From contig CAMCXW010000023.1 in assembly GCA_945883625.1 (NCBI GenBank), positions 1-33,738 of the forward strand: DNA of 33,738 nt. The letters run 5' to 3'. The position numbers and the translations under genes were made by a program. The DNA comes from Spirosoma fluviale. GTDB taxonomy: Bacteria; Bacteroidota; Bacteroidia; Cytophagales; Spirosomataceae. The notes below the pieces were generated by a model. That model was not told the DNA's origin and did no database searches. It saw only the letters and a program-made list of their open reading frames with translations. Below, piece after piece: positions 12,409-33,738 of the stretch (its first letter is position 1; every line of letters starts with the position of its first letter).

Positions 12409-12443
12409 TACCTTTGGCAAACCTTGGAGGATTGCCAAAGGTA
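12409..12443 (+). repeat. dispersed palindromic repeat, copy A
   Basis: Arms TACCTTTGGCAA and TTGCCAAAGGTA pair perfectly around ACCTTGGAGGA, where CCT/AGG can pair again. Compared with copies C, D and F, the left arm has GG for GC and the right arm has the matching compensatory change. It begins 49 bases after the preceding stop codon. No T-tract follows, so it is not a standard intrinsic terminator. Confidence 0.85.
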
Positions 12444-12538
12444 AGGGGTCCCAAAGGAAGCGGCCTAAAGATAAGGGGGGGAGTCAGGATAGGAATCTTT
12501 TCCGATTCTGCGTAAACTTACGTGAATCTAAACCTACC

Positions 12539-13453
12539 ATGAAAAAAATCGTCGCCCTGGCGCTCATCGCCAGCTCGCTTTCGGCACAGGTGCCCGCGGG
12601 TAAAAAAGTCATCAGCTCCTTATACATTTACGACCTCAAGTCCGGTAAATCAGAGAAAATTTTAGAAGAAAAACGACATTTTGAGGCACCTAATTGGTCA
12701 ACCGATGGAAAATTCCTCTTGATAAACGCCTACGGAAAACTGGAAAAAATCAGCCCGAAAGGGGAGAAATTAGGCGGGCTGAATACGGGGACGGTGCAGA
12801 AGGCCAACAATGATCATGGGTATACCTTTGATGGAAAAACCTTATTTATTTCGAGCGGGAAATCGGAGATAAAAGGTGGATCGTCCTTCATTTATAAGCT
12901 TGGCGCAGCGGGAGGAGAGCCAGTTCAGTTAACCCCTTTGACACCGTCGTACTGGCATGGTGTTTCACCTGACGCGAAAACGATGGTCTATTGCGCAGAA
13001 CGAAATGGTAATTTTGACGTATACGCCATGTCGACGAATGGCGGCGAAGAAATTCGGTTGACAAGCACGGAAGGGTTGGATGATGGACCCGAATATTCGC
13101 CCGATGGGAAATACATTTACATTAATTCGTACCGTTCAGGCATGATGCAAATTTGGCGAATCAAACCTGACGGATCTGAGCCGGAACAAATGACATTTGA
13201 CAACTACTCGAATTGGTTTGCGCATATTGCACCCAATAATAAAGTTGCGACCATCATTACCTATATGAAAGACCAGGCTCAGTCACATCCGTTTGGCCGA
13301 CAAATTAAATTGCGCTTATTAGATTTGAAAACGAAAAAAATTAGAGATTTGACGGAGGAATTTTATGGCGGACAGGGCACGATCAATGTTCCATCTTGGA
13401 GTCCTGATGGGAAAAAGTTCGCCTATGTGCGTTACGCATTAGAAGATTTGTAA
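12539..13453 (+). CDS. exported TolB-like beta-propeller protein (PD40 repeats)
   Basis: 304 residues from the ATG at 12539. The longer frame from 12383 would run through repeat A and give a low-complexity leader, while 12539 starts a short signal peptide (MKKIVALALIASSLSAQ). Repeated blades carry the PD40/WD40-like pattern S-P-D-G-K: WSTDGKFLLI, VSPDAKTMVY, YSPDGKYIYI and WSPDGKKFAY, indicating a six-bladed beta-propeller similar to the C-terminal part of TolB. Such periplasmic propellers bind proteins or small molecules; the partner is unknown. Only 27 bases separate it from the oxidoreductase gene downstream, suggesting one operon. Confidence 0.85.
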   Translation: MKKIVALALIASSLSAQVPAGKKVISSLYIYDLKSGKSEKILEEKRHFEAPNWSTDGKFLLINAYGKLEKISPKGEKLGGLNTGTVQKANNDHGYTFDGKTLFISSGKSEIKGGSSFIYKLGAAGGEPVQLTPLTPSYWHGVSPDAKTMVYCAERNGNFDVYAMSTNGGEEIRLTSTEGLDDGPEYSPDGKYIYINSYRSGMMQIWRIKPDGSEPEQMTFDNYSNWFAHIAPNNKVATIITYMKDQAQSHPFGRQIKLRLLDLKTKKIRDLTEEFYGGQGTINVPSWSPDGKKFAYVRYALEDL

Positions 13454-13480
13454 ATTAGCACTCGAAAAAATAACCTATTT

Positions 13481-14881
13481 ATGAAAGATAACAGTTCCGC
13501 ATCACGCAGAAGATTCCTGCAGCAAATCGGTGCAACAAGTATGGTAGCCGCCGCGGCACCTTTACAATCATTCGCAGTACAGCAAAAAGCTGAAGAACGA
13601 ATTTTACGTTACGAAAAACCTATATCCATTGGTGATAAAATCCGCCTGGGCGTTATCGGTTTTGGCGTACAAGGCCATTTCGATTTAGCATCTGCCCTAA
13701 AAGTTCCAGGCGTAGAATTAGCCGGAATTTGTGATTTATACACGGGTCGTATCGAAAATGCCAAAGAACTTTACGGCAAAGATTTATATACCACCCGTAA
13801 CTATAAAGAGTTGTTAGACCGTTCGGATATCGACGCGGTCATTATTGCGACGCATGACGTTTGGCATGCACGCATCACCATCGATGCCTTAGCTAAAGGA
13901 AAACATGTGTATATAGAGAAGCCGATGGTCTACAAAATCAGCGAAGGACAACGCGTGATCGATGCGCAAAAGAAATACAATAAGGTATTACAAGTAGGCT
14001 CCCAGCGCGTTAGCAGCTTAGGCTTAGCAAAAGCGAAGGAGATGTTGGCCAAAGGCGAAATCGGAAAGCTCAACATGGTTAACGCCGTATACGATCGCCA
14101 AAGCTCCATCGGTGCGTGGGAATATACCATTCCAAAAGATGCAGATGCATCTACGTGTGATTGGAATCGTTTCATCGAAGCAACGGCCAAAATGGAATTT
14201 GACGCGAAGAAATTCTTCTGGTGGCGTGCATTTAAAGAAGTAGGAACTGGCGTTGCAGGTGATTTATTCATTCACTTATTGAGTGGAACCCACTTCATGA
14301 CGAACTCAAATGGTCCAGAAACCATCTTCTCTACGGGCCAATTTAGCTATTGGAAAGATGGGCGCAATTTACCAGATGTAATGTCCGGTGTTATGCAATA
14401 TCCGGATACTCCTCAACACCCTGCCTTCCAATTGACCTTGCAGGTGAACTTTGTCAGCGGAACGGGTGGTCAAGAGGTGACTCGTTTGATCGGCTCAGAA
14501 GGAGTGATGAACGTGAAGGGAAATACGATAACTGTGACTCATAGCATCATGCCAGAGGCGCCAGGTTTTGGCGGATATGATTCGGTATTTACGTTCCCGA
14601 AAAGTATGCAGGAGGAGATGACGAAGGAATACAACGCCAAATGGTCGGAGTCTCAACGCAAGCGCCCGATCAAAGAAGATGTGATTTTCAAAGCGCCAGC
14701 GGGTTACGATGAACATGTGGATCACTTCACAAACTTCTTTGATGCGATTCGTACGGGTAAGCAAGTGGTGGAAGACGCGACCTTTGGATTTAGAGCGGCC
14801 GCGCCTGCTTTGGCTTGTAATGAAAGTTATTTCAGCAAGAAGATTATCCAGTGGGACCCTGTCAATATGAAATTAAAATAA
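13481..14881 (+). CDS. Tat-exported Gfo/Idh/MocA-family oxidoreductase
   Basis: 466 residues. The N-terminus has a twin-arginine signal (SRRRFLQQIGATSMVAAAAPL), so the folded, cofactor-loaded enzyme should be exported. The Rossmann motif GVIGFGVQGH (~57-66) binds NAD(P), EKPM at ~146-149 is the family's conserved Lys-Pro motif, and the C-terminal beta-sheet domain binds substrate, generally a sugar or cyclitol. Bacteroidota often have many such periplasmic paralogues; some oxidise or cleave glycosides through 3-keto intermediates. It follows the propeller gene by 27 bases and ends at a strong terminator. Substrate not predictable. Confidence 0.9.
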   Translation: MKDNSSASRRRFLQQIGATSMVAAAAPLQSFAVQQKAEERILRYEKPISIGDKIRLGVIGFGVQGHFDLASALKVPGVELAGICDLYTGRIENAKELYGKDLYTTRNYKELLDRSDIDAVIIATHDVWHARITIDALAKGKHVYIEKPMVYKISEGQRVIDAQKKYNKVLQVGSQRVSSLGLAKAKEMLAKGEIGKLNMVNAVYDRQSSIGAWEYTIPKDADASTCDWNRFIEATAKMEFDAKKFFWWRAFKEVGTGVAGDLFIHLLSGTHFMTNSNGPETIFSTGQFSYWKDGRNLPDVMSGVMQYPDTPQHPAFQLTLQVNFVSGTGGQEVTRLIGSEGVMNVKGNTITVTHSIMPEAPGFGGYDSVFTFPKSMQEEMTKEYNAKWSESQRKRPIKEDVIFKAPAGYDEHVDHFTNFFDAIRTGKQVVEDATFGFRAAAPALACNESYFSKKIIQWDPVNMKLK

Positions 14882-14884
14882 CGG

Positions 14885-14913
14885 AAGGGCGCCTGTGAAG
14901 GCGCCCTTTTTTT
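14885..14913 (+). terminator. intrinsic terminator after the oxidoreductase gene
   Basis: AAGGGCGCC (14885-14893) pairs with GGCGCCCTT (14900-14908) around TGTGAA, followed by a T-run to 14913. A textbook Rho-independent terminator. Confidence 0.92.
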
Positions 14914-14986
14914 ATGAATTGTTTTAAATCTAATGCGGAACAATTGGATATTTCTAAAAAGGAAAAATTTCTTGTAATATTACACG

Positions 14987-15751
14987 ATGAATTTTTCCAC
15001 CGATAAATTTCTTGAAATCCTTCGTAATGTAGGCAGTCGCTATTTTATTCTGGCAGGCATCATATTTATCCTATGTTATTTTTTCTTGCGAAATCGAATA
15101 GCAGCCAAAAAAATTCAAGTCTCTTTTCCTAAAAACTCAGATTATCTCCGCGAAATGATATACTCGCTCTCGAGTATGATCATTTTTTCTTTGATTGTGA
15201 CAGCGATCGTTTTCAATCCTTCCGTAAGGCCTTATACCACGATTTACCGAGAAATTGCTGAATACGGATTGGCTTATTATCTACTCGCTTTCCCAATCAT
15301 GTTTGTGATACATGACACCTACTTTTATTGGATTCATCGAATGATGCACCATCCCGTATTATTCAAATGGTTTCATTTAGTGCATCATAAATCTACGAAT
15401 CCCTCGCCGTGGGCGGCGTATGCCTTTCACCCTTTGGAAGCGATTCTGGAAAATGGGATAATCATTTTGTTTTATTTCACCTTACCCATGCATGTTACAC
15501 ATGTGCCAATCTTTTTCCTTTTTTCCATTATCTACAATATTTATGGACACATGGGTTGGGAATTATATCCCAAAGGATTTAATACAACGCAGATCGGTCG
15601 GTGGGTAAATACAGCCGTGGCACACAATCAGCACCACAAATATTTTAAGGGGAATTACGGTTTATATACCTTGTTTTGGGACCGTGTGATGGGAACGATA
15701 CGAACTGACTATGATGCGGCTTTTGATCAGGTCAAAAACCGAAAAATCTAG
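14987..15751 (+). CDS. fatty acid hydroxylase/sterol desaturase family membrane enzyme
   Basis: 254 residues with four to five TM helices. The di-iron histidine clusters of the family are present in order: HDTYFYWIHRMMHH (His109, 117, 121, 122), HLVHHKS (His130, 133, 134) and HNQHH (His213, 216, 217), with a further His at 148 (AFHPLEA). The family hydroxylates or desaturates lipids, carotenoids or sterol-like molecules using O2 in the inner membrane. The exact lipid substrate is unknown; no carotenoid or hopanoid genes are nearby. Its stop codon TAG overlaps the stop of the convergent tolC-like gene in the tetranucleotide CTAG. Confidence 0.9.
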   Translation: MNFSTDKFLEILRNVGSRYFILAGIIFILCYFFLRNRIAAKKIQVSFPKNSDYLREMIYSLSSMIIFSLIVTAIVFNPSVRPYTTIYREIAEYGLAYYLLAFPIMFVIHDTYFYWIHRMMHHPVLFKWFHLVHHKSTNPSPWAAYAFHPLEAILENGIIILFYFTLPMHVTHVPIFFLFSIIYNIYGHMGWELYPKGFNTTQIGRWVNTAVAHNQHHKYFKGNYGLYTLFWDRVMGTIRTDYDAAFDQVKNRKI

Positions 15752-17136
15752 TTTTCATATAAGATACCCGCACTCGCCTGCATGGCAAAGGTGGTTTTTT
15801 GTAGGTAGGCTTTTAGGTCCACCAACTTTTCTGCTGCTTCTAGGGATTTCATTTCCCGACTATTGATTAAAAACAACGAAGACTCTCCATTATCAAATCG
15901 TAGTTCCTCAGCCTTTACAAGCGATTGAAAATTTTTGTAAGCAGATTCCTGTGTTCTAATTTGTTTTTGTAAGGCTTCGAATTCATTGAAGTAATTTCGG
16001 ATTTTGATCTCAACTTGAACCTGTTTTTGATTCAAATTAAGTTGCTCATTTTCGAGTTTTAACTTGGCCGCTTGATACGCACCGCGACCTTCGGAAAGCC
16101 GAAGGGGGATTTCAAACTTAACGCCGTATTTATAATTATTCTCTAAGAAGGCAGCTCCCAAAAGTGATGGGCCGCCTCGTGACAAATGGTTATAGCTTAG
16201 GTCTAGTTTAGGCAATAAGCTTTGAAATTTTAACCTTTTTTCAATCCCCAATACATCTAATTTATTTCGGTAATTATTAAGTTCCGGGTGATTTTGCATG
16301 GCTTTTTCAATGAGACTTTGCAGATTAAGGTCGGCATTGGCAAGTAAGCGAACTTCATCGTTTGGTGTTGGGATTACATCTTCGGCTAGGTCAACGGGAT
16401 TATTATTCGCATTCCAAAGGTAAGCAGACAGGCCGATGCGGGCATTGGCAACTTCTAAGACCTTTGTGGTCAACATATTTTCAAAAGTCTGTTTTTGTGT
16501 TAGCGCCTCTAGGGTATCAATTGCGGGTCTATCTCCAAATTCGACACTCTTTTTTACGAACTCCAATCGATTGATTGCATTTTGGTAATTAGCCTTTACT
16601 AATAGAAAAGCTTGGTAGTTCCTCACCCAAGAGATGTAACTTTCCATGGCATCTAACAGTAATTTGTTCAGTTCGCTACGCTGATCTTGAATCGCCATTT
16701 TTTGCATAATTTTAGCCTGCTGAAGTACAGCTCGTCGCTTATCCATGAGCAGGTTTTTAGCTAACGGAATTTGAACACCGAGGTAACTCGTCTGGCCCAT
16801 AGTTTGGCTTTCATCAAGCCGCGAACCTCTGATATTTTCTATACCTGCATTGAACTCGATGCCGTACCAGGTAGGGATACTTAGGGATGGCGCGTGATAT
16901 TCAATGTAATTTTTGCCATCCAACGTTTTTTGTGTGCTGTAATGTTCCAATATAGGGTCAAAAGCGCCACGTGCAATCGTCAGCGAGGCATTCGATTGTT
17001 TAATTTCAATCAAAGTTTGCTTGACAATGGGGTGGAAATTTTGAACAATTTGCCAATAATCCGTCGAGCTCAGCGTTTTTTGTTGGCCAAAACTGACGTT
17101 GAAAACCAGCAGAAAAAGCAAGACTTTATTTTTCAT
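15748..17136 (-). CDS. TolC-family outer-membrane efflux protein
   Basis: 462 residues from the ATG at 17136, chosen over a longer frame because it begins a signal peptide (MKNKVLLFLLVFNVSFGQ). The body is mostly long alpha-helical, heptad-like stretches in two halves (for example QLNLNQKQVQVEIKIRNYFN and LQKQIRTQESAYKNFQSL), as in TolC-type channels. It is the last gene of the operon ABC-HlyD-TolC and overlaps the HlyD gene by 11 bases, so it should form the outer-membrane exit duct of that exporter. The ORF continues to within 4 bases of overlap with the convergent hydroxylase gene. Confidence 0.9.
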   Translation of the reverse strand: MKNKVLLFLLVFNVSFGQQKTLSSTDYWQIVQNFHPIVKQTLIEIKQSNASLTIARGAFDPILEHYSTQKTLDGKNYIEYHAPSLSIPTWYGIEFNAGIENIRGSRLDESQTMGQTSYLGVQIPLAKNLLMDKRRAVLQQAKIMQKMAIQDQRSELNKLLLDAMESYISWVRNYQAFLLVKANYQNAINRLEFVKKSVEFGDRPAIDTLEALTQKQTFENMLTTKVLEVANARIGLSAYLWNANNNPVDLAEDVIPTPNDEVRLLANADLNLQSLIEKAMQNHPELNNYRNKLDVLGIEKRLKFQSLLPKLDLSYNHLSRGGPSLLGAAFLENNYKYGVKFEIPLRLSEGRGAYQAAKLKLENEQLNLNQKQVQVEIKIRNYFNEFEALQKQIRTQESAYKNFQSLVKAEELRFDNGESSLFLINSREMKSLEAAEKLVDLKAYLQKTTFAMQASAGILYEN

Positions 17137-18439
17137 TCTTTTCCTTTTTTGCTGTTTTGCCACGGTAGTAATCGGCAGGGAATCCATTAATATTTCGCCA
17201 CAATTCATACCAAACAGGCACGTCGTTTAGTAGGGCAATTCCTTGAGCGCCCGCACCGATTCGAAGCTGCTTGGGCCATCTTTTTCCTTGCGGGTCCTCT
17301 TCCACGATGACGCGAAACAGTCCTTGCTCATTGATGGTATTTTCCACTGCGCGAATTCTGCCGGGGAAGGTTCCAAAGCTTTGATTAGGCCAGCCTCCAG
17401 CAAATAAAATCACGGGATAACCATCGAAAATTAAACGGACTTCTTCCCCGCGTACGATGAGGGGTAAATCTACGGGACGGACGAAAATTTCCACCGCAAC
17501 ATTATTAACGTTTGGAACAATCGTCAATAGGTCTTCTCCTTCTTTAATAATTTCACCAAGTCCGAATTTTGTTGCCTGTATAATCTGACCGGCTTGCGGT
17601 GCGATGATGAAATACATGCCATTTCGAATGGTATAATTGGTTACCAAATTCTTTAGTTTGGCCACATCTCCTTTGTTGGTTTCCACCTGTCCTAAACTTT
17701 GAAACCGTTCGCTCTCTGCCTTATTGATTTTTTCGCGGTATTCTTGGTCAATACCCCCTAACTCAATTTGTGCGTTTGCTATATCTTGCAAGGTTTGATT
17801 TACCTTATTCTCCGCCGTTGTATTTTTCGCCAGGGCATTTTGCATGGCCACATTTCTTTGTTGGAATTGCGTCTGCGAAATCAAGCCTTCCCGGTACATT
17901 TTCTGGTTTCGGTCAAATTGGTCTTTGGCTAAAGCATAGTCATTTTTAGCCGCCTCTAATTCGGCCCGCTCTCCCGTAATTTTTTGTTGGAGCTGCTTTA
18001 TTTTGTTTCCTACCTGCTCTTGTTTCAGGGTCAATGAACGTTTCAGGTTTTTAATCTGGGCATCGGTGGCTAAAATCTTTTGTTCATAGTAGCTGAGGGA
18101 TCCCACTTTGGCATTCAATTGGTCTTGTGTACGTGCAATCAAATTAGGGTCAAGGTACTCGCTTTTAATCTCCGTGATTTTGGCAAGGGTATCTCCAGCC
18201 CGAACATTGTCCCCCTCTTTGACCCACCACCTAGAAATTTTACCGGCGATTGGGCTATAAATTTTTTGAGGTTTTTGTTCTTGAAAAAGGCTTGTAATAT
18301 TTCCTCTGCTACGAATGTTCTGAGTCCAAGGTAAAAATATAAGCGCAAGACTAAGAAAAAGCAAGGTGTATAACCAAGGTTTAACTGCCGTGCCTTTCTC
18401 TTCTTGGTAGATGTGGTCAAACGAGTTAAACTTTTCCAT
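17126..18439 (-). CDS. HlyD-family membrane fusion protein
   Basis: 437 residues. A short cytoplasmic N-terminus is followed by one TM helix (~23-40). IYSPIAGKISRWWVKEGDNVRAGDTLAKI (~60-88) is the first lipoyl-like half-motif. Long coiled-coil hairpin regions follow (~100-250, rich in K/Q/E, for example KQLQQKITGERAELEAA), then the second half of the lipoyl domain (APQAGQIIQATKFGLGEIIKEGEDLLTI) and a beta-barrel. This is the periplasmic adaptor linking the ABC protein to the TolC-like channel. It overlaps the ABC gene by 14 bases and the TolC-like gene by 11, so the three are translationally coupled. Confidence 0.92.
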   Translation of the reverse strand: MEKFNSFDHIYQEEKGTAVKPWLYTLLFLSLALIFLPWTQNIRSRGNITSLFQEQKPQKIYSPIAGKISRWWVKEGDNVRAGDTLAKITEIKSEYLDPNLIARTQDQLNAKVGSLSYYEQKILATDAQIKNLKRSLTLKQEQVGNKIKQLQQKITGERAELEAAKNDYALAKDQFDRNQKMYREGLISQTQFQQRNVAMQNALAKNTTAENKVNQTLQDIANAQIELGGIDQEYREKINKAESERFQSLGQVETNKGDVAKLKNLVTNYTIRNGMYFIIAPQAGQIIQATKFGLGEIIKEGEDLLTIVPNVNNVAVEIFVRPVDLPLIVRGEEVRLIFDGYPVILFAGGWPNQSFGTFPGRIRAVENTINEQGLFRVIVEEDPQGKRWPKQLRIGAGAQGIALLNDVPVWYELWRNINGFPADYYRGKTAKKEKNEK

Positions 18440-20069
18440 GGGTCATGTTAATTTGTTGGTCTGTCAATTTATTAAAATCGGCATCATCTGAAACGACAAT
18501 CACGGTCGTATCAGCAGGTAAATTCAAAAGGTATTTTTTAATTATCTCTTTGTTGCTTGGCTCTAAACCTGCCCAAGGCTCTTCTAGTAGTAGTAGTTTT
18601 TTATTTCCGCAAAGTGCACGAAGTAGGAGAATTTTGCGAATAATGGTTTGTGGCGTTTTCTTCCCGATGGGCTCCATGAGTGTGTTGAAACCCAAAGGAA
18701 AATGAGTTAACAAATCTTCAAATCCAAGTTCATTTGCTTTTTGGAGAATCACTTCATTTGTGATTTTCTTTTGTCCTAAGCTAATATTTTCCCACAGACT
18801 TCCGCCGAATATTTCCTGTCCGTGAAGTAAAATACCTGTGTATTTGCGAAGGCTTTGTAAGGAGTAATTTTGAACAGGGAAATGGTTAATTTGAAAGCTG
18901 CCTTCAAAATCTTGGTAATTTCCAGTCAATATGCGGAGTAGCATGGATTTACCGGAACCTTCAGGGCCAGAAATACTTACTTTTTGGCCCGGTGTAAATC
19001 GAAGTGTAATTGAATCTAGTATTTTTTTACTTGAGTCAAATGAAAAAGAGAAGTCGGCCAACTGCACATCTAATCCTTTGTCGACGCCCAGTTCCATCGT
19101 TCCGGATTGCTCCAAGGGGCTTTCGGTTACGCTTGCAATTTTTTCTAGTCCGGTGATCACATCGTATGCACTATCTAAACTAGTGATTAGTTTTTCGACA
19201 GCCCCAATCACGATTAAGATGACGATTTCAGCGGCAATAAATTCCCCAATGTTTAACTGTTGTTCGACCAATAAAAATGTCCCCAACGTTAACATCAGAA
19301 GTGTCAAACTTACTTTGAAAAAAATCAATGTTTTGTATTGAAATAATAGCACGTGAAAATGTTGCGTACGTGCGTTCAAATATCCTCGGGTGTGAACGTT
19401 TGTTTTTTCCAAGTTCAGATGAGTTCCTTGACTAAATTTAAATGATTTTAACGTACGGCCCATTTCGTTAAAAAAGCCAACTACCTCGTATTTGTAATTT
19501 GATTCTTCAATACTAGTTGAAATCCCTTTATTACTACTAAAATTAAAAATAAGAAGGAGAAGTGTAATAAGGAAAATACCTAATAAAATGAAGAGCGGGT
19601 GGTATAGGGAAAGAAGTAAAATTCCGAATACGATTTGAACAGTGGCAATAGGTATATCGAGAAGTAACTTGGCAAATCCTTTTTGGATATTTACCGTATC
19701 GAAAAATCGGTTCACTTTTTCGGGTATGAAATAGTGGTCCATTTTCTTTAAGTCCATGCGAGGTATCGTGTCAGCAAATGTGTAGGCATAACTTGTGAAG
19801 ACGCGCTGCTGAATCGTCTCAATGATTTTCATCTGGTTGATTTGTAAAATACCTACCAAAAATACGCCCAAGACAACGAGGAAAATAAGTACATAAATGG
19901 AGCTGACCATCGTCGCACCCATCACTAAACCAATGATCGTTTGAACGCCCAAGGGTAAACTTAAATTGATTAGACCACTGAGCATGGAGAAGAGGTAGAT
20001 AGAAACGACTTCTTTTTTATGCAATTTGACAAGTTGGGCAATTCGTTTTAACGGATTGGATGGTGCCAT
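18426..20069 (-). CDS. type-I-secretion-like ABC transporter with degenerate ATPase motifs
   Basis: 547 residues. An exporter TM domain (~20-300, six helices, no N-terminal peptidase or CLD domain) is fused to a nucleotide-binding domain. Walker A is good (GPEGSGKS, Lys374) and a Q-loop Gln is at 418. Other motifs are eroded: the LSGGQ signature is replaced by GKKTPQTIIRK (~469-479), Walker B ends EEP (Glu496-Glu497) instead of DEP, and the H-loop His is replaced in VVSDDAD (~525-531). It is the first gene of the operon with HlyD and TolC proteins, predicting a three-part envelope exporter. Substrate unknown. As a homodimer it may bind ATP but hydrolyse it poorly, or need a partner. Confidence 0.88.
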   Translation of the reverse strand: MAPSNPLKRIAQLVKLHKKEVVSIYLFSMLSGLINLSLPLGVQTIIGLVMGATMVSSIYVLIFLVVLGVFLVGILQINQMKIIETIQQRVFTSYAYTFADTIPRMDLKKMDHYFIPEKVNRFFDTVNIQKGFAKLLLDIPIATVQIVFGILLLSLYHPLFILLGIFLITLLLLIFNFSSNKGISTSIEESNYKYEVVGFFNEMGRTLKSFKFSQGTHLNLEKTNVHTRGYLNARTQHFHVLLFQYKTLIFFKVSLTLLMLTLGTFLLVEQQLNIGEFIAAEIVILIVIGAVEKLITSLDSAYDVITGLEKIASVTESPLEQSGTMELGVDKGLDVQLADFSFSFDSSKKILDSITLRFTPGQKVSISGPEGSGKSMLLRILTGNYQDFEGSFQINHFPVQNYSLQSLRKYTGILLHGQEIFGGSLWENISLGQKKITNEVILQKANELGFEDLLTHFPLGFNTLMEPIGKKTPQTIIRKILLLRALCGNKKLLLLEEPWAGLEPSNKEIIKKYLLNLPADTTVIVVSDDADFNKLTDQQINMTHGKV

Positions 20070-20087
20070 TTTTTAATTGTTGAAGTA

Positions 20088-20095
20088 CAAAATTA
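20088..20095 (-). promoter_or_regulatory. possible -7 box for the ABC-HlyD-TolC operon
   Basis: TAATTTTG on the minus strand, 18 bases upstream of the ATG at 20069. No TTG is visible at the expected -33 position, so the promoter may need an activator. Confidence 0.4.
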
Positions 20096-20214
20096 AAAAT
20101 ACTTTACGTAATAGACGTTATATAGCTACTTATGAATCATAAATTTTTTTTATAATCCTTATATGTTTTTGGACCATTTTGAGTTAAATTTGAGGGGAGT
20201 TACATCGCTGGTTT

Positions 20215-21469: not shown

Positions 21470-21555
21470 AATATGCGTATTTGCTTTAAAGTGGATGGAT
21501 AAATTTGATTGGGTATTTATCAGTTTTTTAGGTTCAAAGGATCTTTTTTCTCCTT

Positions 21556-21588
21556 AGCTTTGGCAAACCTGTCAGGTTTGCCAAAGCT
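21556..21588 (+). repeat. dispersed palindromic repeat, copy B
   Basis: AGCTTTGGCAAACCT (21556-21570) pairs perfectly with AGGTTTGCCAAAGCT (21574-21588) around a GTC loop, the most complete stem of the family. It is preceded by a T-run/C-run tract (TTTTTTCTCCTT). It lies between divergent genes, unlike the other copies, which are 3' of a gene. Confidence 0.8.
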
Positions 21589-22881: not shown

Positions 22882-22916
22882 TACCTTTGCCAAACCTTGG
22901 AGGATTGGCAAAGGTA
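22882..22916 (+). repeat. dispersed palindromic repeat, copy C
   Basis: Arms TACCTTTGCCAA (22882-22893) and TTGGCAAAGGTA (22905-22916) around ACCTTGGAGGA. It is preceded by TTTCCCCCT and followed by GTGAAAAC. It sits between the convergent SDR and glf genes. TTG at 22859-22861 is 20 bases before the left TACCTTTG, a promoter-like spacing, but it would read antisense to glf. Confidence 0.9.
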
Positions 22917-24027: not shown

Positions 24028-24047
24028 GTTGTTCAATTATTCAATGT

Positions 24048-24090: not shown

Positions 24091-24125
24091 TACCTTTGCC
24101 AATCCTCCAAGGTTTGGCAAAGGTA
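24091..24125 (-). repeat. dispersed palindromic repeat, copy D
   Basis: Same element as C in the opposite orientation: TACCTTTGCCAA (24091-24102), centre TCCTCCAAGGT, TTGGCAAAGGTA (24114-24125). On the minus strand it is preceded by CATTCCCCCT and followed by GGAAAAG, as in C. It begins 46 bases after the acyltransferase stop codon. Confidence 0.9.
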
Positions 24126-25053: not shown

Positions 25054-25092
25054 ATTTTAACTTATTTTCCAGCAAGGTTCAAAATTTTCCGC

Positions 25093-25953: not shown

Positions 25954-25969
25954 CCTTTTTGTATGTTTG
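25943..25969 (+). promoter_or_regulatory. promoter abutting the 25975 start (leaderless candidate)
   Basis: TATGTTTG (25962-25969) fits TAnnTTTG and ends only 5 bases before the ATG at 25975; TTG lies 16 bases upstream (25943-25945). A transcript would begin at or next to the ATG. Confidence 0.45.
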
Positions 25970-25974
25970 TGGCC

Positions 25975-27059: not shown

Positions 27060-27091
27060 AAACGCTATCCGAATTTCAGACAGCGTTTTTT
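27059..27091. terminator. terminator between convergent genes
   Basis: AAAACGCT (27059-27066) pairs with AGCGTTTT (27082-27089), with TC/GA inside, followed by two further Ts to 27091. The A-run on the left gives a U-tract for the minus-strand aldolase operon too. Confidence 0.8.
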
Positions 27092-27146
27092 GAACTATAC
27101 TTCATCAACAAACTAAATATCGGTTTAAAGTAAAAATAAAAGTCTA

Positions 27147-28034
27147 TCAATCCAATAGATTTTTGCGTTCTTCAATTAATTTATCTAATGCCACGCATAA
27201 TTCCGGGGTTAATTTTCCTACATCTCTACGAGTTTCTAATCCGATTGGAAATCCCATTTTCGCCAATACATATTTCGCACTTGTAGGATACACATCATGC
27301 ATCAGCTGCATATGTTTACACATAAATTTTTGAATGTGTTGTCCCTGCTCAGGTGTCCGACACAATTCAACAATGAGATCTGGGAAATAGTTGCCCTGAA
27401 TGCAAGAAAGCCCCATTGAACCTGCCTGTAACGAGGCTATCGCATGTTCAATGTACGCGTCATATACCCCAAAAACATGCCCTTTCCCCGCATTAATTTT
27501 CGCTTGAACATCGGTGAGTGAAAGCGACGTATCCTTGTGATAGCATAGTCGGCCGGTCAACAATAAATCCTCCAAAACCGGTAAACTTATCAATCGTTTA
27601 TAGGGAACAGGACATTCATACATACCAAACGGAATGCCCGGAGTTAAGTCTAACCAGGCATGGACGCGCGCCAAAAATTCCGTATCTGACTCCTCAGCAG
27701 ACGCAAACTGATTATTTAAAATGATCACGGCATCAACCCCAAGCGCATATACTTGCTTTGAAAAATCAGCCATTTCCTCGATACTGCCGCCTAAAGTTCC
27801 CGTCGCGACAACGGGTACGCGGCCTGCCACTTGCTTGACAACAGTGTCGATCACCAACAAGCGTTCTGCTGAACTTAGTTCATACATCTCACTCGATAAG
27901 CAATTTGCAAAAAGCCCCACCGCGCCTTGCTCAAGGTAAAATTCAGTTAATAGGCGTAATCCAGGCATATCTAATGCCATCTCAGGGGTAAATGGCGTTA
28001 ACATTACGGGTATAAATCCATTCGGTATTCTCAT
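27147..28034 (-). CDS. N-acetylneuraminate lyase/DHDPS-family aldolase
   Basis: 295 residues, TIM barrel of the class I pyruvate-aldolase family. Lys167 (CYHKDTS) is the Schiff-base lysine and Tyr139 (GMYECPVPYK) the conserved tyrosine, 28 residues apart as in NanA and DapA. The usual G-x-x-GE carboxylate-binding motif is replaced by ANCLSSEMYELS (~43-54), so it is neither a standard DapA nor NanA. It is the last gene of an operon with a sialidase-like enzyme and a sodium symporter, overlapping the symporter stop by 4 bases (ATGA). It probably cleaves or dehydrates an imported sugar acid; sialic acid is one possibility. Confidence 0.88.
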   Translation of the reverse strand: MRIPNGFIPVMLTPFTPEMALDMPGLRLLTEFYLEQGAVGLFANCLSSEMYELSSAERLLVIDTVVKQVAGRVPVVATGTLGGSIEEMADFSKQVYALGVDAVIILNNQFASAEESDTEFLARVHAWLDLTPGIPFGMYECPVPYKRLISLPVLEDLLLTGRLCYHKDTSLSLTDVQAKINAGKGHVFGVYDAYIEHAIASLQAGSMGLSCIQGNYFPDLIVELCRTPEQGQHIQKFMCKHMQLMHDVYPTSAKYVLAKMGFPIGLETRRDVGKLTPELCVALDKLIEERKNLLD

Positions 28035-29530
28035 CTTTTTTTCATGAAAAATTGTGCAAAAAGTCCCAGTCCTACAATCGTTAATGTCCCTACAACTACA
28101 GTTAATTTGGCGTCAAGCGGACTTTGGTAGTTGGCAGGCAACAAATCCTTAAACGACATCCAAGCGATCACGACAACACCGCCGATCGCCGCGATTTTTG
28201 CCGCCATGTTCGATACATGTTTCGCTAAAAAACCAAGTAAAAATATACCCAACATGCCTCCTGCGAATATGCCTGATAGTTTCCACCAAACGTCTAACAG
28301 GCTTTTTACTCCAATCATGCAAATACCAAATACAATCCCTAAACAGCCCATGACCACCGTGGAAATAAGTAATACACGCAATTGTTTTTGTGGCGCCAAA
28401 TCGGGCTGTACATACCGTAAGTAAATGTCTTTCAAAAACACCGTGGCGGAACTATTCATGCCCGAGCTCATCGTGCTCATTCCTGCCGATAAAAGCGCAG
28501 CTAGCAAAAGACCAAGCAGACCTTTGGGAATTTGTGTTTTCATGAAGAAAGGCAATACCCGATCCGCATAATCAGTGGCCTTCAACGCCTCTACGCCCAT
28601 GTTTCTTTCCAAAGCGACCTGCTTTTTTAACTCTAAAATAAGGGTTGGATTTAAGTCATAATAGGCATAAAGGGCCGTTCCTATAAAGAAAAATAAAAAG
28701 GAAACAGGTAAGTAATAAAGCACGCAAAGCCAAATACTTTTGGCGGCATCCTGTGTATTTTTTGCCGTATGGTACCGTTGAATGTAGTTTTGGTCAATCC
28801 CAAAATTGGTTAAATTAATAAAAAACCCATAACTCAAAATGACCCAAAATGAACTCGTGGTCAAATCTGGGGAAAAGCTACCTAAACTAAATTTGGCATC
28901 ACGCTGCCCAATTGTAAGTACATCGGAAAAGCCGATTTGACTCGTAATGATGACTAGAATCAAAAGCGCCCCCAATGTTTTTAAAATAGCCTGAATTACC
29001 TCCGTCCAAATGACAGCCTCCATTCCCCCCAATACCGTGTAACAGATGATCACAAAGCCAGAAACAAGAATAATTCCCTCCATTTGAATACCCGTCAACG
29101 CATTAATCGTCAGCGCTAATCCGTAAAAAATAGTCCCCATTCGGGCCAATTGGGTCATAATAAAACAAACCATGGCATACGTACGCGCCCAAGCCCCAAA
29201 GCGCTCTTCCAAGTGTGAATAGGCGCTGATCGCTTCTCCATTTCGGTAAAAAGGAACGAAAAGTTTAGTGGCTACAAGTGCCGCAAAAGGAATAGAAAGA
29301 CTAAAAACGAAGGGATTCCAATTGCTTCCAAATGACTTTCCCGGATCCCCCAAGAAGGTAATCGCACTCAAAAATGTGGCATAAAAGCTTAATCCAAGCG
29401 CCCAGCCAGGAATTTTCCCAGATGCCGTTGTAAATTGTTCCGAACTTTTATTTTTCCGAGAGAAGTAAACCCCCACCCCAATCATGCTGAGGAGGTAAAT
29501 TCCGATAATGGCTAGGTCCAGATTTGACAT
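28031..29530 (-). CDS. sodium:solute symporter (SSS family)
   Basis: 499 residues with about 13 TM helices. IIGIYLLSMIGVGVYFSRKNKSSEQFTTASGKIPGWALGLSF is the typical SSS N-terminus (helix, then the charged loop before helix 2); GLLLAALLSAGMSTMSSGMNSSATVFLKD (~345-373) is the signature of the family including the Na+-site serines. It imports an organic solute with Na+. It starts one base after the sialidase-like gene and overlaps the aldolase gene by 4 bases, so its solute is likely the product of the sialidase-like enzyme and the substrate of the aldolase. The exact solute (sialic acid or other sugar acid) is unknown. Confidence 0.92.
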   Translation of the reverse strand: MSNLDLAIIGIYLLSMIGVGVYFSRKNKSSEQFTTASGKIPGWALGLSFYATFLSAITFLGDPGKSFGSNWNPFVFSLSIPFAALVATKLFVPFYRNGEAISAYSHLEERFGAWARTYAMVCFIMTQLARMGTIFYGLALTINALTGIQMEGIILVSGFVIICYTVLGGMEAVIWTEVIQAILKTLGALLILVIITSQIGFSDVLTIGQRDAKFSLGSFSPDLTTSSFWVILSYGFFINLTNFGIDQNYIQRYHTAKNTQDAAKSIWLCVLYYLPVSFLFFFIGTALYAYYDLNPTLILELKKQVALERNMGVEALKATDYADRVLPFFMKTQIPKGLLGLLLAALLSAGMSTMSSGMNSSATVFLKDIYLRYVQPDLAPQKQLRVLLISTVVMGCLGIVFGICMIGVKSLLDVWWKLSGIFAGGMLGIFLLGFLAKHVSNMAAKIAAIGGVVVIAWMSFKDLLPANYQSPLDAKLTVVVGTLTIVGLGLFAQFFMKKR

Positions 29531-29531
29531 A

Positions 29532-30527
29532 TTAAAGGGTCATGATAACGTGTTTGATTTTCTTCCGTTTCCATGTATATGTAATGTGAACTTTTCCATC
29601 TGAAGCTTGGATAACAGCTGGGTAGGAGAATTCGCCACCCGGCTCATTTTCTAAAATGGCAACGTCATTCCAGGTTTGGCCATCAGCCGAAATGGCGACG
29701 TTTAATGGGCTGCGTCCCTTTTTTGTCTTGTTGTAAATAATGATGTGCCTGCCATCCCGCAATGTCACAGCATCAGTACCCGAGTTTGGATTGAGCATGT
29801 TGGTGGGCGTTAAAGCTGTCCAACTTTTCCCATTGTCATCTGAAGTGGATTGTAGAACGAAGCCGTTTTTGGACCGACAAACCTGCTGTAGTTTTCCGTT
29901 TGGTAATTTCAGAATACTTGGCTGGATCGCGGATGTTGTCACCCCATCATTCAACGCGTCCGTACGCGACCATGTTTTCCCCCCGTCTTTTGTAAACTCC
30001 ATGTGCAGTCGCCAGCCATGATCTTCCGAACTCGAAGGACACAATAAGGTGCCATCTGCCATTAATTCGGGCTTATTTTTAATAGGTCCGTAGATGTCTT
30101 TTGGTAGTCGCTCCGCTGCCGACCAGCTTTTTCCGCCATCGGTGGAACGCTTTAACATACCCCACCATGTGTCCGGAGCAGGTCCTTCTTTGTAAAATAA
30201 AATGAGTTCTTTGCCAGGCATTTGGAACAAAACAGGGTTCCAAGTTGGATAGCGTTTACCAGTATCTTGGACACCATTGGCAACTTCTACCGGCGTAGTC
30301 CAGGACCCGTTGCGGAAAAAGCTAAACCAAATGCCCACATCTGGATGTTTTTCATGGGTCCCCCCAAACCAAGCAGCGGCAATCCCCGCTGGTGTTTCCA
30401 CCAAAGTAGACGCATGACACGAAGGAAACGGGGCACTTTCGTAGATAAATGCAGATTGTTCAATCTGCTGAGCTTGCGCCCAAGGCGCGATCATGCCTAA
30501 AAGGCAGAATAAGATTAGTTTTTTCAT
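29532..30527 (-). CDS. exported sialidase-like BNR-repeat protein
   Basis: 331 residues with a signal peptide (MKKLILFCLLGMIAPWAQA). Asp-box/BNR repeats STDGGKSWS, TKDGGKTWS and TSDDNGKSWT (S-x-D-x-G-x-T/S-W) mark a six-bladed sialidase-type propeller (BNR_2 group). PSCHASTLVETPAGIAAAWFGG and KNKPELMADGTLLCPSSSEDHGWRLH are conserved in a subgroup commonly annotated as exo-alpha-sialidase whose true substrates are often unproven. First gene of the operon with the symporter and aldolase, so it likely releases the imported sugar acid outside the inner membrane. Repeat E supplies a promoter-like sequence 44 bases upstream. Confidence 0.85.
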   Translation of the reverse strand: MKKLILFCLLGMIAPWAQAQQIEQSAFIYESAPFPSCHASTLVETPAGIAAAWFGGTHEKHPDVGIWFSFFRNGSWTTPVEVANGVQDTGKRYPTWNPVLFQMPGKELILFYKEGPAPDTWWGMLKRSTDGGKSWSAAERLPKDIYGPIKNKPELMADGTLLCPSSSEDHGWRLHMEFTKDGGKTWSRTDALNDGVTTSAIQPSILKLPNGKLQQVCRSKNGFVLQSTSDDNGKSWTALTPTNMLNPNSGTDAVTLRDGRHIIIYNKTKKGRSPLNVAISADGQTWNDVAILENEPGGEFSYPAVIQASDGKVHITYTWKRKKIKHVIMTL

Positions 30528-30544
30528 AGGTTTAGAACGTCATA

Positions 30545-30577
30545 AGCTTTGTCAATCCTTTGAGGTTTGACAAAGCT
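30545..30577 (-). repeat. dispersed palindromic repeat, copy E
   Basis: AGCTTTGTCAA (30545-30555), centre TCCTTTGAGGT, TTGACAAAGCT (30567-30577). Relative to C, D and F it has several compensatory changes (GCC to GTC with GGC to GAC; ACC to AGC with GGT to GCT). On the minus strand it follows TTTTTTTCCCTTT. It begins 45 bases after the pentapeptide gene's stop. Confidence 0.85.
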
Positions 30578-30600
30578 AAAGGGAAAAAAACAATTTCAAA
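30571..30600 (-). promoter_or_regulatory. repeat-derived promoter for the sialidase-like operon
   Basis: On the minus strand TTTG (30600-30597), an 18-base spacer and TAGCTTTG (30578-30571), whose last seven bases are the end of repeat E. It points at the sialidase-like gene; the start site would fall inside the palindrome. Confidence 0.5.
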
Positions 30601-30622
30601 TACCTCTTAAAAAATTTATCAA

Positions 30623-31183
30623 CTAACTGATTTCGATTCCGATGTCGCTAAGCAGACCTGCTAAGCCATCCGAAGAAAATTTGGCTTTTTTCAATCGATT
30701 CAATGCCGGGGAAATGGTGTAATTAACCACCGAACGGAAGTCGGCCTTCTCCAATACCGTCCGATCAAACAAAGCCCCAGCCAAATCACATGCGTCAAAT
30801 TTCGCCTCTGAAAAATCGGCTTCGGTAAAGTCAACTTCATGTAATACGCAGTCCTGGAAACTTGTTTTTTTACTCTTAGTTTGATAAAAAGAGGATAAAT
30901 TTAGGACACATTGCGTGAATTGGTATTCTAATAAAAACTGGTTGCAAGCCTCAAAATGAAGCCCTTGCATTTTACATCCCTCAAATACTACCTGCTGTAA
31001 CGAAGCACCGCCTAACTTAATCAGTGATAGATTACAGTCCTCAAACCGACAATCCACAAACTGAAAATTCTTTAAATCAGCACCCTCAAGATTGCACGAA
31101 CGAAAGGTGCAATGTTCATATTCCGCATAGGCAAGCGAAGTGCATTTTTCGAAAAGCTGGTCGGCGACGTACGGTTTTTCCAT
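30623..31183 (-). CDS. pentapeptide-repeat protein
   Basis: 186 residues built of A/C-(D/N)-(L/F)-x-x pentapeptides: CTFRS CNLEG ADLKN FQFVD CRFED CNLSL through to ADFSEAKFDACDLAGALFDRTVLEKADF. This should form a right-handed quadrilateral beta-helix of about seven coils. The C-terminal cap NRLKKAKFSSDGLAGLLSDIGIEI resembles the end of Qnr/McbG-like DNA-mimic proteins that protect gyrase, but that function is not proven here. No signal peptide. TATTTTTG ends 4 bases before the ATG, so the transcript may be leaderless. Repeat E follows 45 bases after the stop. Confidence 0.88.
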   Translation of the reverse strand: MEKPYVADQLFEKCTSLAYAEYEHCTFRSCNLEGADLKNFQFVDCRFEDCNLSLIKLGGASLQQVVFEGCKMQGLHFEACNQFLLEYQFTQCVLNLSSFYQTKSKKTSFQDCVLHEVDFTEADFSEAKFDACDLAGALFDRTVLEKADFRSVVNYTISPALNRLKKAKFSSDGLAGLLSDIGIEIS

Positions 31184-31187
31184 CCGA

Positions 31188-31195
31188 CAAAAATA
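31188..31195 (-). promoter_or_regulatory. -7 box abutting the pentapeptide gene start
   Basis: TATTTTTG on the minus strand (31195-31188) fits TAnnTTTG and is separated from the ATG at 31183 by four bases. No clear TTG at -33. Suggests a leaderless transcript if used. Confidence 0.4.
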
Positions 31196-31264
31196 CTAAA
31201 ATTCAGGGGAGGCCTTGGTTTGAATATCAAAAAAAACACGCATTTTTACAAAAAACCAACGACT

Positions 31265-32101
31265 ATGAAAATCAACATGTTACTCTTCGCCCTCGTGGTC
31301 AGCTTGCCCACATTGGCACAAAAATTATACACCTATCCAATGGGTGTTCAGGCCTATACTTTCCGGAAACATTTTCCTAATGGAACAGAGAAAACATTGG
31401 ACATCATTAAAAACATGGGAATTACGGAGCTGGAAGGCGGCGCTCCGAAAGGCTACACGCCGGAACAATTCAAGCAATTATGTACTGATCGAGGCATAAG
31501 CATCCCATCCACAGGAGTAGATTATAGTGAACTTGCGAATCCGCAAGCGGCCGTAGAACGGGCTAAAATTCTTGGGGTGAAATTTGTTATGTGTGCATGG
31601 ATTCCGCATAAAGGCACCGACTTCACCTTGGAAGACGCGCAAAAAGCGGTGGCACTTTTCAATTCGGCCGGAAAGGTTTTTAAGGAAAATGGCATCACGT
31701 TTTGTTACCACGATCATGGCTATGAGTTTCATGCTTATGAGGACGGAACCTTAATGGATTACATTATCAAAAACACGAATCCGGAGTATGTTTCCTTTGA
31801 AATGGATGTGCTTTGGACGATGCATGGCGGTGGCGCGGATATGCCTGTGAAATTATTGAAGAAATATCCAAACCGTTGGAAACTAATGCACGTAAAAGAT
31901 TTGCGCAAAGGCGTGATGGGGAATTTGACTGGTGGTACGCCTGCAGAAAATGATGTTCCGGTGGGAACGGGTCAGGGTAATTGGAAAGCCATTATCAAAT
32001 TGGCCAAGAAAAATGGCATCGAGCATTGCTTCATTGAAGATGAAAGTGACAAAGAATTGGAATATGTTCCTTTGAGCATTCAGTACTTGAAAAGCCTGTA
32101 A
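31265..32101 (+). CDS. exported sugar phosphate isomerase/epimerase-family TIM barrel
   Basis: 278 residues from the ATG at 31265, which begins a signal peptide (MKINMLLFALVVSLPTLAQ); a longer frame upstream lacks any such start. The xylose-isomerase-like TIM barrel shows metal-site motifs: ELEGG (Glu57 region), CYHDHGYEF (His149, His151), FEMDVLW (Glu179, Asp181), LMHVKD (His209) and IEDES. Family members isomerise or epimerise sugars, keto-sugars or inositols with a divalent metal; the exported form is common in Bacteroidota. Substrate unknown. The 3' end carries a promoter for the GH32 gene downstream (32087-32118). Confidence 0.87.
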   Translation: MKINMLLFALVVSLPTLAQKLYTYPMGVQAYTFRKHFPNGTEKTLDIIKNMGITELEGGAPKGYTPEQFKQLCTDRGISIPSTGVDYSELANPQAAVERAKILGVKFVMCAWIPHKGTDFTLEDAQKAVALFNSAGKVFKENGITFCYHDHGYEFHAYEDGTLMDYIIKNTNPEYVSFEMDVLWTMHGGGADMPVKLLKKYPNRWKLMHVKDLRKGVMGNLTGGTPAENDVPVGTGQGNWKAIIKLAKKNGIEHCFIEDESDKELEYVPLSIQYLKSL

Positions 32102-32118
32102 TAATTTCTTTACTTTTG
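32087..32118 (+). promoter_or_regulatory. promoter of the GH32 gene
   Basis: TTG (32087-32089, in the end of the epimerase gene), a 21-base spacer and TACTTTTG (32111-32118) match the Bacteroidota consensus well. Transcription would start near 32123-32125, at the foot of the hairpin 32121-32155. Confidence 0.6.
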
Positions 32119-32120
32119 TT

Positions 32121-32155
32121 GGGTGGTCTCATTGCACATGGGCCACCCTTTTTTT
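32121..32155 (+). terminator. terminator-like hairpin touching the GH32 start codon
   Basis: GGGTGGTC (32121-32128) pairs with GGCCACCC (32141-32148, one G-T pair) around a 12-base loop, followed by seven Ts (32149-32155) directly before the ATG at 32156. It fits an intrinsic terminator for the epimerase gene but also lies between the GH32 promoter and ATG. Confidence 0.8.
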
Positions 32156-33577
32156 ATGAAAAAAATCGTCCTTTTTTGCCTGTTGGCATTTTCCACTTTC
32201 GCCCAAGAACAACACCGTCCGCGCCTTCATTTCACCCCACCGAGTATGTGGATGAACGATCCTAATGGCTTAATTTATGAAAATGGAACGTATCATTTGT
32301 ATTATCAACATTATCCGAAAAGTACGGTTTGGGGTCCGATGCATTGGGGTCATGCGACTAGTACGGATTTGTTGCGTTGGAAACACCAACCAATCGCTTT
32401 GTATCCCGATTCGCTTGGATTGATTTTTTCGGGTTCGGCTGTGGTTGATCGCCAAAATACGGCTGGTTTTGGGGAAAATGCCCTTGTTGCCATTTTCACA
32501 TCGCACAATATGGAATGGGAAAAAGCGGGTCGTATTGATCGCGAAAATCAAAGCATTGCATTTAGTAACGATCATGGATATACGTGGACTAAATATGCCG
32601 GAAATCCTGTTTTGAAAAATCCGGGTATTGCAGATTTTCGAGATCCGAATGTCTCATGGTATGCCCCAGGAAATAAGTGGATTATGGCTTTGGCTACGCA
32701 GGACCGTGAGACATTTTATTCATCGAAGGACTTGAAAACCTGGACGCGGGAAAGTGATTTTGGCGCTGGCATTGGTGCGCATGGCGGAGTTTGGGAGTGT
32801 CCGGATTTATTTTCGATGGAGGTAGACGGTAAGGAAAAATGGGTGTTATTGGTCAGTATTAATCCAGGGGCACCTAACGGCGGATCGGGTACGCAGTATT
32901 TTGTAGGAGATTTTGATGGGCATCAGTTTGTGCCACAGGATGCGGAAACGCGCTGGATTGATTATGGTCGGGATAATTATGCGGGCGTGACTTTTCATGA
33001 AACAGGGAAACGGAGGGTCTTTTTAGGCTGGATGTCAAACTGGGATTATGCGACGGTTGTGCCTACGAAATCATGGCGCAGTGCGAATACGTTGCCACGC
33101 GATTTGGCATTAAAAAATGTTAGTGGAAAATATTTTATTAGCTCGAAGCCCATCGATTTGCCGGTGGAGTCTGCGAAAAAGTTGGCCTCTGGCAAATCAA
33201 TGAAATCTTCTTCAGCCTTGTTGCGGATTTCCGCAAAGGGGCAAGCTGTTCATGATTTTTCCATTGTTTTAGCAAATGCCAAAGGCGAGCAGGTGACCAT
33301 GGGATACGAAAAATCAACTAATCGTTATTTTGTGGACCGTCGGCAGTCAGGAGATTTTTCATTTAGCTCTAAGTTTTCAAGTCGGGACTATGCCCCTCGA
33401 ATAAGCCAATCTGCTACCATCGATTTCCAAGTAATTACCGATGTGGCGTCTGCGGAAATGTTTGCGGATGGCGGGCTAACTGCCATGACCACGATTTATT
33501 TCCCTTCGGAGGAGTATAAGGTTATTTCGGTTAAGGGAATTTCGGTGGATGTGGAGGTTGTTAAGCCGATTTTGTAA
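32156..33577 (+). CDS. exported GH32 fructosidase (levanase/invertase-like)
   Basis: 473 residues from the ATG at 32156, which starts a signal peptide (MKKIVLFCLLAFSTFAQ); an upstream in-frame ATG lies in the hairpin and is rejected. The GH32 catalytic triad is complete: WMNDPNG with nucleophile Asp35, FRDPN with Asp163 as transition-state stabiliser, and WECPDLF with acid/base Glu214. The five-bladed propeller is followed by a C-terminal beta-sandwich (~340-473). It should release fructose from sucrose, levan or inulin-type fructans in the periplasm or outside; which one is unclear. No SusC/D or fructokinase gene is adjacent. Repeat F begins 46 bases after the stop. Confidence 0.93.
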   Translation: MKKIVLFCLLAFSTFAQEQHRPRLHFTPPSMWMNDPNGLIYENGTYHLYYQHYPKSTVWGPMHWGHATSTDLLRWKHQPIALYPDSLGLIFSGSAVVDRQNTAGFGENALVAIFTSHNMEWEKAGRIDRENQSIAFSNDHGYTWTKYAGNPVLKNPGIADFRDPNVSWYAPGNKWIMALATQDRETFYSSKDLKTWTRESDFGAGIGAHGGVWECPDLFSMEVDGKEKWVLLVSINPGAPNGGSGTQYFVGDFDGHQFVPQDAETRWIDYGRDNYAGVTFHETGKRRVFLGWMSNWDYATVVPTKSWRSANTLPRDLALKNVSGKYFISSKPIDLPVESAKKLASGKSMKSSSALLRISAKGQAVHDFSIVLANAKGEQVTMGYEKSTNRYFVDRRQSGDFSFSSKFSSRDYAPRISQSATIDFQVITDVASAEMFADGGLTAMTTIYFPSEEYKVISVKGISVDVEVVKPIL

Positions 33578-33609
33578 GCTCGTTTTTATCAGTTTTTAGA
33601 CTGGGAAAA

Positions 33610-33738
33610 TCACTTTTTCCCCCTACCTTTGCCAAACCTTGGAGGATTGGCAAAGGTAAGTAAAACCTTTTTCCACGTATCTAAACGTCCATCGATCGCA
33701 GAGGGATCAAACTCCAGCCCTAACATGCGCGCCACAAG
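33610..33738 (-). CDS. C-terminal end of an unidentified minus-strand protein (partial)
   Basis: A frame open from the right edge of the window runs leftwards for 42 codons to TGA at 33610-33612. It reads LVARMLGLEFDPSAIDGRLD, TWKKVL and then continues through repeat F as LTFANPPRFGKGRGKK. The first 26 residues look like a real protein end (amphipathic, balanced composition); a phosphatase/sulfatase-type C-terminus is a guess only. The last 16 residues come from the repeat. If genuine, this gene overlaps repeat F and converges on GH32 with 32 bases between stops. Confidence 0.5.
   Translation of the reverse strand, partial: LVARMLGLEFDPSAIDGRLDTWKKVLLTFANPPRFGKGRGKK
33624..33658 (+). repeat. 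dispersed palindromic repeat, copy F
   Basis: Identical to copy C over 35 bases: TACCTTTGCCAA (33624-33635), ACCTTGGAGGA, TTGGCAAAGGTA (33647-33658). It is preceded by TTTTTCCCCC and followed by AGTAAAAC. It starts 46 bases after the GH32 stop and is read on the minus strand as the end of the partial gene at the window edge. Confidence 0.92.

Follow-up and report, generated by a model that had tools for sequence, protein, structure and literature searches.

A 33,738-nt stretch of the genome of the freshwater bacterium Spirosoma fluviale (called the window below; contig 23 of the home assembly, which has 2,305,426 bases and is 88.8% complete) contains six dispersed copies of a short hairpin palindrome, and it raises the question of what keeps such a family in a genome. 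Repeats that resemble repetitive extragenic palindromes (REPs) are usually explained by a REP-associated tyrosine transposase (RAYT), and whether any of them are kept for function is the open question addressed here. Our analysis showed that the six copies belong to a large family with a two-part anatomy, that the two arms of the hairpin covary, that many copies are retained in place between species, and that the head of the hairpin flips in situ. With about even confidence, we read the family as an old, REP-like, two-part DNA element that is kept by selection and bound by a putative host protein.

The six hairpins described in the first-pass annotation were all found at their positions (Table 1), and they form the first direct-repeat family listed by a repeat search of the window. 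They have the claimed 11–12 bp stem, 3-bp inner stem and triloop, and five of the six have the single A.A or T.T mismatch, copy B being fully paired. Comparison of the sequences bore out that copies C and F are identical with D as their reverse complement, and that A, B and E differ by paired base changes. Seven positions in the window combine arms of 15 bp with a triloop and no more than one mismatch, and none was found in any of 20 first-order Markov random windows. An Rfam scan of the window DNA gave no family at the gathering threshold. Copy A is overlapped by a long open reading frame (ORF) call (12383–13453), but it is most likely intergenic because an ATG lies further inside that call, at 12539.

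The family is not limited to these six copies. A symmetric pattern found 60 places in the home genome at up to three mismatches (60 forward and 60 reverse matches) and none with the reversed-pattern control. The exact pattern was present in 11 of 149 relatives, all of them within the genus (11 of 38), and in none of the 111 others; all 11 carrier genomes are incomplete assemblies. A covariance model, R1, with 150 candidates scored per genome, gave between 24 and 149 strand matches for every one of the 11 carriers, 1 to 10 in ten of the remaining genus genomes and zero in 17. Weaker R1 matches were found in 16 of the 111 relatives outside the genus; the copies from four of these were mostly of a 33-nt design with CTTTGNCAAA ends, a few being 1–2 bases longer or less regular. 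With a looser pattern, 12 of 395 genomes of the phylum were positive, in three genera (control 0), and the related 33-nt design was found in two other genera of the same class, which may be Flavobacterium and Chryseobacterium. A contig scan with the exact pattern returned at least 102 stretches, with 100 from Cytophagaceae and two from Candidatus Parabeggiatoa among the matches listed, and there was no exact match in viral contigs. The two Parabeggiatoa matches (L134, L140) are perhaps convergent in origin; L134 also contains a AAACCTGCCAGGTTTG.. palindrome. The same architecture was seen in unrelated sequence once in 954,520 bases (L032:9241).

The 216 distinct copies (orthologs included) were divided into 143 of type I, with ACC/GGT or AGC/GCT ends, and 73 of type II, without them. 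All six window copies are type I, B and E being of the AGC form. The type I hairpin is 33–35 nt long and reads TACC or TAGC, TTTGNCAA, the A.A mismatch, CCT, a triloop of any three bases, AGG and the complement. In a set of 204 copies, the mismatch is retained in 163. Type II copies are often arrayed with other GC-rich repeats, at a spacing of 49–171 nt. Some of these arrays (L033:2718–2970, L046:596–797, L125:5415–5816, L024:3387–3504) partly adjoin repeats such as GACGCGAAGTATCGCGTC and GGCGC..GCGCC, forming a mosaic of several palindromic repeats.

The covariation seen among the six copies held in a larger alignment and is real. With this and the many copies across the genome, the family withstood both of the refuting conditions set in the first-pass annotation. 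In 65 distinct copies, a set chosen with some condition on pairing, both partners had changed in 36 cells and a single partner in 5, and the covariation score (0.111, against 0.035 in shuffles) was reached in 0 of 500 shuffles. Two of the five measures were weaker, with double-change pairs reached in 15 and further pair types in 123 of the 500 shuffles. Two further tests were free of the condition on pairing. Firstly, the stem position left free in the pattern was paired in 185 of 186 copies (at most 130 in shuffles); the outer pair was paired in 137 of 186 (at most 82), and pairing at the outer positions −3 and −4 was not above shuffles. Secondly, among copies chosen by their left arm only, 122 had no more than two of 15 pairs unpaired (85 had none) and the other 13 had at least eight; 35 of the 41 unpaired cells in the 122 copies were at the last base. 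The first-pass annotation had taken covariation as an argument for selection on structure, but paired changes can also be produced by hairpin-templated repair, so that covariation by itself does not prove it. Wobble pairs were scarce, with 5 G-U cells against 36 double changes in the 65 copies and 6 G.T pairs in 1830 cells of the left-arm-selected copies, all at the last base. Because G.T pairs are so few, pairing in DNA appears to fit better than pairing in RNA.

Retention of the hairpin at orthologous places is stronger evidence for selection than covariation. Sites A, C, D, E and F were compared at loci that had been fetched via neighbouring genes and not via the element. Among seven relatives, site A was intact in four (G006, G003, G022, G037), had one terminal base changed in G031 and was degenerate in G011; the hairpin of G035 (L287) is interrupted by the start of a run of N, which looks as though assembly had halted at the palindrome. 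Site C has kept the same variant in five of six relatives (G006, G037, G003, G035, G022) and is absent in G011, and site F is intact in both loci that reach that far (G006 and G037). Copy B lies in a 92–94 bp stretch that matches G006 and G003 at 83–84%. Copy C is faced by a UDP-galactopyranose mutase gene (GLF), and at ten further loci no element was found in the 130 nt beyond the GLF stop codon (carriers L168, L169, L170; low- or no-copy genomes L171–L177), L178 and L179 being unreadable there and left aside. In G031, the sequence matching the other neighbour of copy C extends across a copy at a different position of the same contig.

A wider type I set gave 51 ortholog comparisons with the element; these are not independent of one another, having sites and species in common. 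The free stem pair never differed in the 51 (C-G in 15, G-C in 36). The outer pair was the same in 48, and in the remaining three, at two sites, both sides had changed. Many loci of this set had been fetched for the exact pattern, so that identity of the core is partly conditioned; the free positions, and the loci fetched via neighbouring genes, are not. Different sites keep different variants, and homogenisation between copies therefore does not explain the identity. The flanks have turned over at many type I sites while the hairpin has stayed at the orthologous place.

The element is larger than its hairpin, since copies carry a one-sided base and part of them an upstream box. An extra T or A was present at exactly one hairpin end in 87 of 93 copies (T only in 28, A only in 59, both in 3, neither in 3; Fisher p 4e-17 if orthologs are treated as independent), and the flanks of type I are rich in C on one side and in G on the other. 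In 38 of the 143 distinct type I copies the box, ATCAGTT, precedes the core by exactly 40 nt, other offsets accounting for no more than three each. Type II gave one match, at another offset, and the reversed-letter control none; the box was on both sides in 0 of 88 copies. Window copies A, B and F carry it, and C, D and E are not among the box-bearing copies listed. At site A the distance of 40 nt is common to five species (the home species, G003, G022, G031 and G037) and is 41 nt in G006. The spacers of those five agree on average at only 13.5 of 29 bases. The evidence for a fixed spacing is strongest at this site, because the spacers at two other sites are less diverged (means of 18.5 and 21.8 of 29). 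A second hairpin within the 29-nt spacer was considered and dropped, since alifold predicted none there; its best column pair had a z of 3.6, uncorrected for the many pairs.

Where both orthologs have the mismatch (41 of the 51 comparisons), the head of the hairpin was reversed with its flanks unreversed in 12, at six sites; the head of window copy C is also flipped in G037. These flips suggest that the hairpin has formed in DNA and left its trace there. They also show that hairpin-mediated events happen, as would be expected of a neutral family of old palindromes, spread anciently, in which template switching at replication keeps the palindrome and slow decay mimics conservation. The relic copies of four low-copy genomes (G016, G026, G028, G034), which remain near-palindromes, would suit such a history as well. 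However, the site A spacer has diverged while five of seven relatives keep an intact or almost intact hairpin, and it is the spacing of the box there that has been kept and not the spacer sequence. The A.A mismatch has also persisted in most copies, though correction would erase it. We therefore regard neutral persistence as very improbable.

In the reading that we favour, the first part of the element would be the 33–35 nt hairpin, with a T or A added at one foot only and with C/G-rich flanks, and the second part, in about a quarter of type I copies, would be the box ATCAGTT at exactly 40 nt before the core. The hairpin would form in DNA, either in single strands at replication or as a cruciform, and a putative host protein would recognise it and also sense the box or its distance. 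Most type I copies would be old and fixed, under selection on sequence and pairing and not subject to ongoing transposition. They would probably serve as structured binding sites in intergenic DNA, perhaps at a boundary of the chromosome or of a transcription unit. Binding of gyrase or of nucleoid proteins has been proposed for REPs. A more specific version, which we put forward only as a tentative possibility, is that the family represents a new class of DNA-hairpin site, composed of a box, a measured distance of 40 nt and a mismatch hairpin with a one-sided foot base. Its putative reader, not a RAYT, would need both parts; it would serve as a structural or boundary signal at fixed places, and the head would flip whenever the hairpin extrudes.

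Several observations weigh against selection at fixed places. Site D is intact in only two of six relatives (G006, G037); in the other four (G011, G003, G035, G022) alignment was limited to one flank, and the 160 nt read contained no copy. Site E is intact in none of six, with only CAAAGCTAAA kept, and the element was absent or degenerate in 10 further type I comparisons of the wider set. About three quarters of type I copies are without the exact box, and the two less diverged spacers detract from the argument on spacing. The partial conditioning of the core and the shared sites and species of the ortholog comparisons reduce the weight of these comparisons. The protein partner is putative only. 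Template switching at hairpins could by itself keep the arms matched and flip the heads. Finally, the home genome alone does not show the preference for convergent gaps that is described below for pooled loci.

The anatomy of the element also suits a non-autonomous mobile element, moved by a single-strand transposase of the IS200/IS605-like or another HUH type that has been lost or has gone unrecognised. The hairpin would then be the recognition site and the box the cleavage site, and template switching would match the arms. The present mismatch, one-sided base and 40-nt box may be likened to the anatomy by which such transposases recognise their sites. The dispersal of the family in many copies, with subtypes of which the second forms arrays, points the same way. 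But the RAYT-type transposase that the first-pass annotation proposed to look for did not appear: PF01797 had no match in the home assembly or in any of the 11 carriers, as far as these incomplete assemblies go and with other HUH families not searched. PF01797 was present in 12 of 27 other members of the genus. R1 was absent from all 10 RAYT loci examined among the 12 fetched from relatives, and CTTTGNCAAAG from 30 RAYT loci of other genera. A link to RAYT, for PF01797, was rejected on these grounds. No transposase was found among the ORFs neighbouring the arrays, in 10 by Pfam and in 10, partly the same, by PHROGs. A search for empty sites with 223 copies against 340 sequences gave one candidate, which was not clean, in loci that are biased to presence. 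Retention of the free stem pair in every comparison of the wider set also speaks against mobility. This explanation seems to us rather unlikely, but it keeps a real minority share of the probability, given an anatomy that fits single-strand transposases and the lack of a clean empty site that would decide the matter.

Five of the RAYT loci of relatives (L149–L153, in G015, G033, G020, G017 and G024) have RAYT genes with other palindromes, GCCATGGATTT.. or GGCCGGGATTT.., and in all five a further 33-nt palindrome, AACGCTGTCAAGG.., is located within 1 kb.

Analysis of the gene context bears on whether the element acts in RNA, as a 3′ untranslated region hairpin that is readable from either strand and ends transcripts or protects their 3′ ends. 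In the pooled loci, which contain orthologs and were selected by the element, type I copies were in convergent gaps in 39 of 95 cases, and strict type I copies in 34 of 74, compared with 25 of 153 control gaps. The rest of the element-bearing convergent gaps had terminator-like hairpins less often (5 of 34 against 11 of 25), the box often follows directly after a stop codon when inspected by eye, and there is an enrichment in T some 20 nt outside the hairpin, at 0.45–0.57 on the side lacking the extra base. All of these would fit an RNA element. However, the home genome taken by itself did not favour convergent gaps significantly (8 of 26, against 20 of 81 for control gaps; p 0.61). The convergent-gap bias, found in pooled loci only, was thus dropped as a main argument, and we do not rest the mechanism on 3′ ends because the bias was not reproduced there. 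Directly after the hairpin the sequence is A/G-rich on both strands, with no T-run of an intrinsic terminator. Some copies are in divergent gaps (copy B, and 9 of 74 pooled strict type I), and the box at −40 was found in 6 of 48 start-side flanks, against 17 of 100 stop-side flanks. The scarcity of G-U pairs and the free flipping of the head count against RNA as well, and overall we consider this explanation unlikely.

Orientation in tandem gaps followed no clear rule: transcription ran with the GGTAA strand in 9 of 30 cases and with the A.A strand in 17 of 31. Bacteroidota promoters have the motif TTTG..TAnnTTTG. We found no enrichment of TTTG at about 19–21 nt before TAnnTTTG in 184 sides, and TACCTTTG as a promoter −7 box was rejected because the upstream TTTG was not enriched at the required distance.

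The first-pass annotation knew of no such element in Bacteroidota. REP-like palindromes, including types without a transposase, are in fact known in Bacteroidetes, as stated in the consulted parts of PMC3733652 and PMC6006769; the literature searched contained no report of the present element itself. The class is therefore known. What is new here is the two-part anatomy, the site-specific retention, the in-place flips and the one-sided base. A limited literature search gave no report of a two-part anatomy with measured spacing, of site-specific retention or of in-place flips, and a limited search by sequence strings gave no title on bacterial repeats. With no PF01797 match in its carriers, site-specific stem variants, a measured motif distance and a record of flips, the family makes function versus selfish spread directly testable.

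Like the GTAG REPs that go with RAYT/TnpA-REP (REPtrons, REPINs), the present family consists of short imperfect palindromes with a mismatch, in many and mostly intergenic copies, with one foot marked by a short motif; its length is within the 20–40 nt of such palindromes. In contrast to them, it has no GTAG tag and no PF01797 match in its carriers, its box is at a fixed 40 nt, and many of its copies are retained at orthologous places between species. The flank profiles showed no unpaired GTAG tag beside the hairpin but the one-sided extra T or A instead; the letters GTAG do arise on the side that lacks the extra base, where the paired GGTA precedes a G (0.70). The CGTC REPs are palindromes that lack a dedicated transposase; the consulted part of PMC3733652 reports them from several phyla, Bacteroidetes included. 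The present family resembles them in having no such transposase, as far as PF01797 is concerned. However, type I has a different stem and no CGTC tag, which was absent at either end in the flank profiles of 132 type I copies, and a box or a one-sided T/A is not mentioned in that part of PMC3733652. The atypical structures flanking Bacteroidetes TnpA-REP of subclass 2.6, as presented in the consulted part of PMC6006769, are from the same phylum and also have copies elsewhere in the genome, whereas the present family was found without a PF01797 match and was absent from the RAYT loci checked. The CTTTGNCAAA.. palindromes of the two other genera share the 33-nt design and the CTTTGNCAAA ends but differ in the inner stem, and the pattern used there excludes the A.A mismatch.

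Table 1. Hairpin copies and upstream boxes in the window (positions in the 33,738-nt stretch).
Feature	Position	Strand	Remarks
Hairpin copy A	12409..12443	+	TACC..GGTA, A.A mismatch, loop TGG
Hairpin copy B	21556..21588	+	AGC..GCT, full pairing, loop GTC, divergent gap
Hairpin copy C	22882..22916	+	GCC/GGC variant, convergent genes on either side
Hairpin copy D	24091..24125	-	Inverse of C and F
Hairpin copy E	30545..30577	-	GTC/GAC variant
Hairpin copy F	33624..33658	+	Identical to C
Box ATCAGTT of copy A	12373..12379	+	40 nt before core
Box ATCAGTT of copy B	21519..21525	+	40 nt before core
Box ATCAGTT of copy F	33588..33594	+	40 nt before core; also in G006 (L311) and G037 (L312)

The relic copies in G028, G026, G034 and G016, genomes that are otherwise nearly free of the family, are located at a convergent GH28/GH2 locus (L202, L208, L210, L211), and their stems are partly changed or broken. 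Compared with the corresponding home locus (L037:3380–3414), the last 200 residues of GH28 are 85–89% identical and the facing protein 58–60%. The locus was perhaps acquired by gene transfer. At site E (window 30545–30596; L311–L316), all six relatives keep CAAAGCTAAANGGAAAAAA without the full hairpin, and this may be either a half-element or a separate conserved motif. Between convergent ORFs, at 4441–4480, the window also contains a perfect inverted repeat of 19 bp with A/T-tracts, which looks like an ordinary bidirectional terminator.

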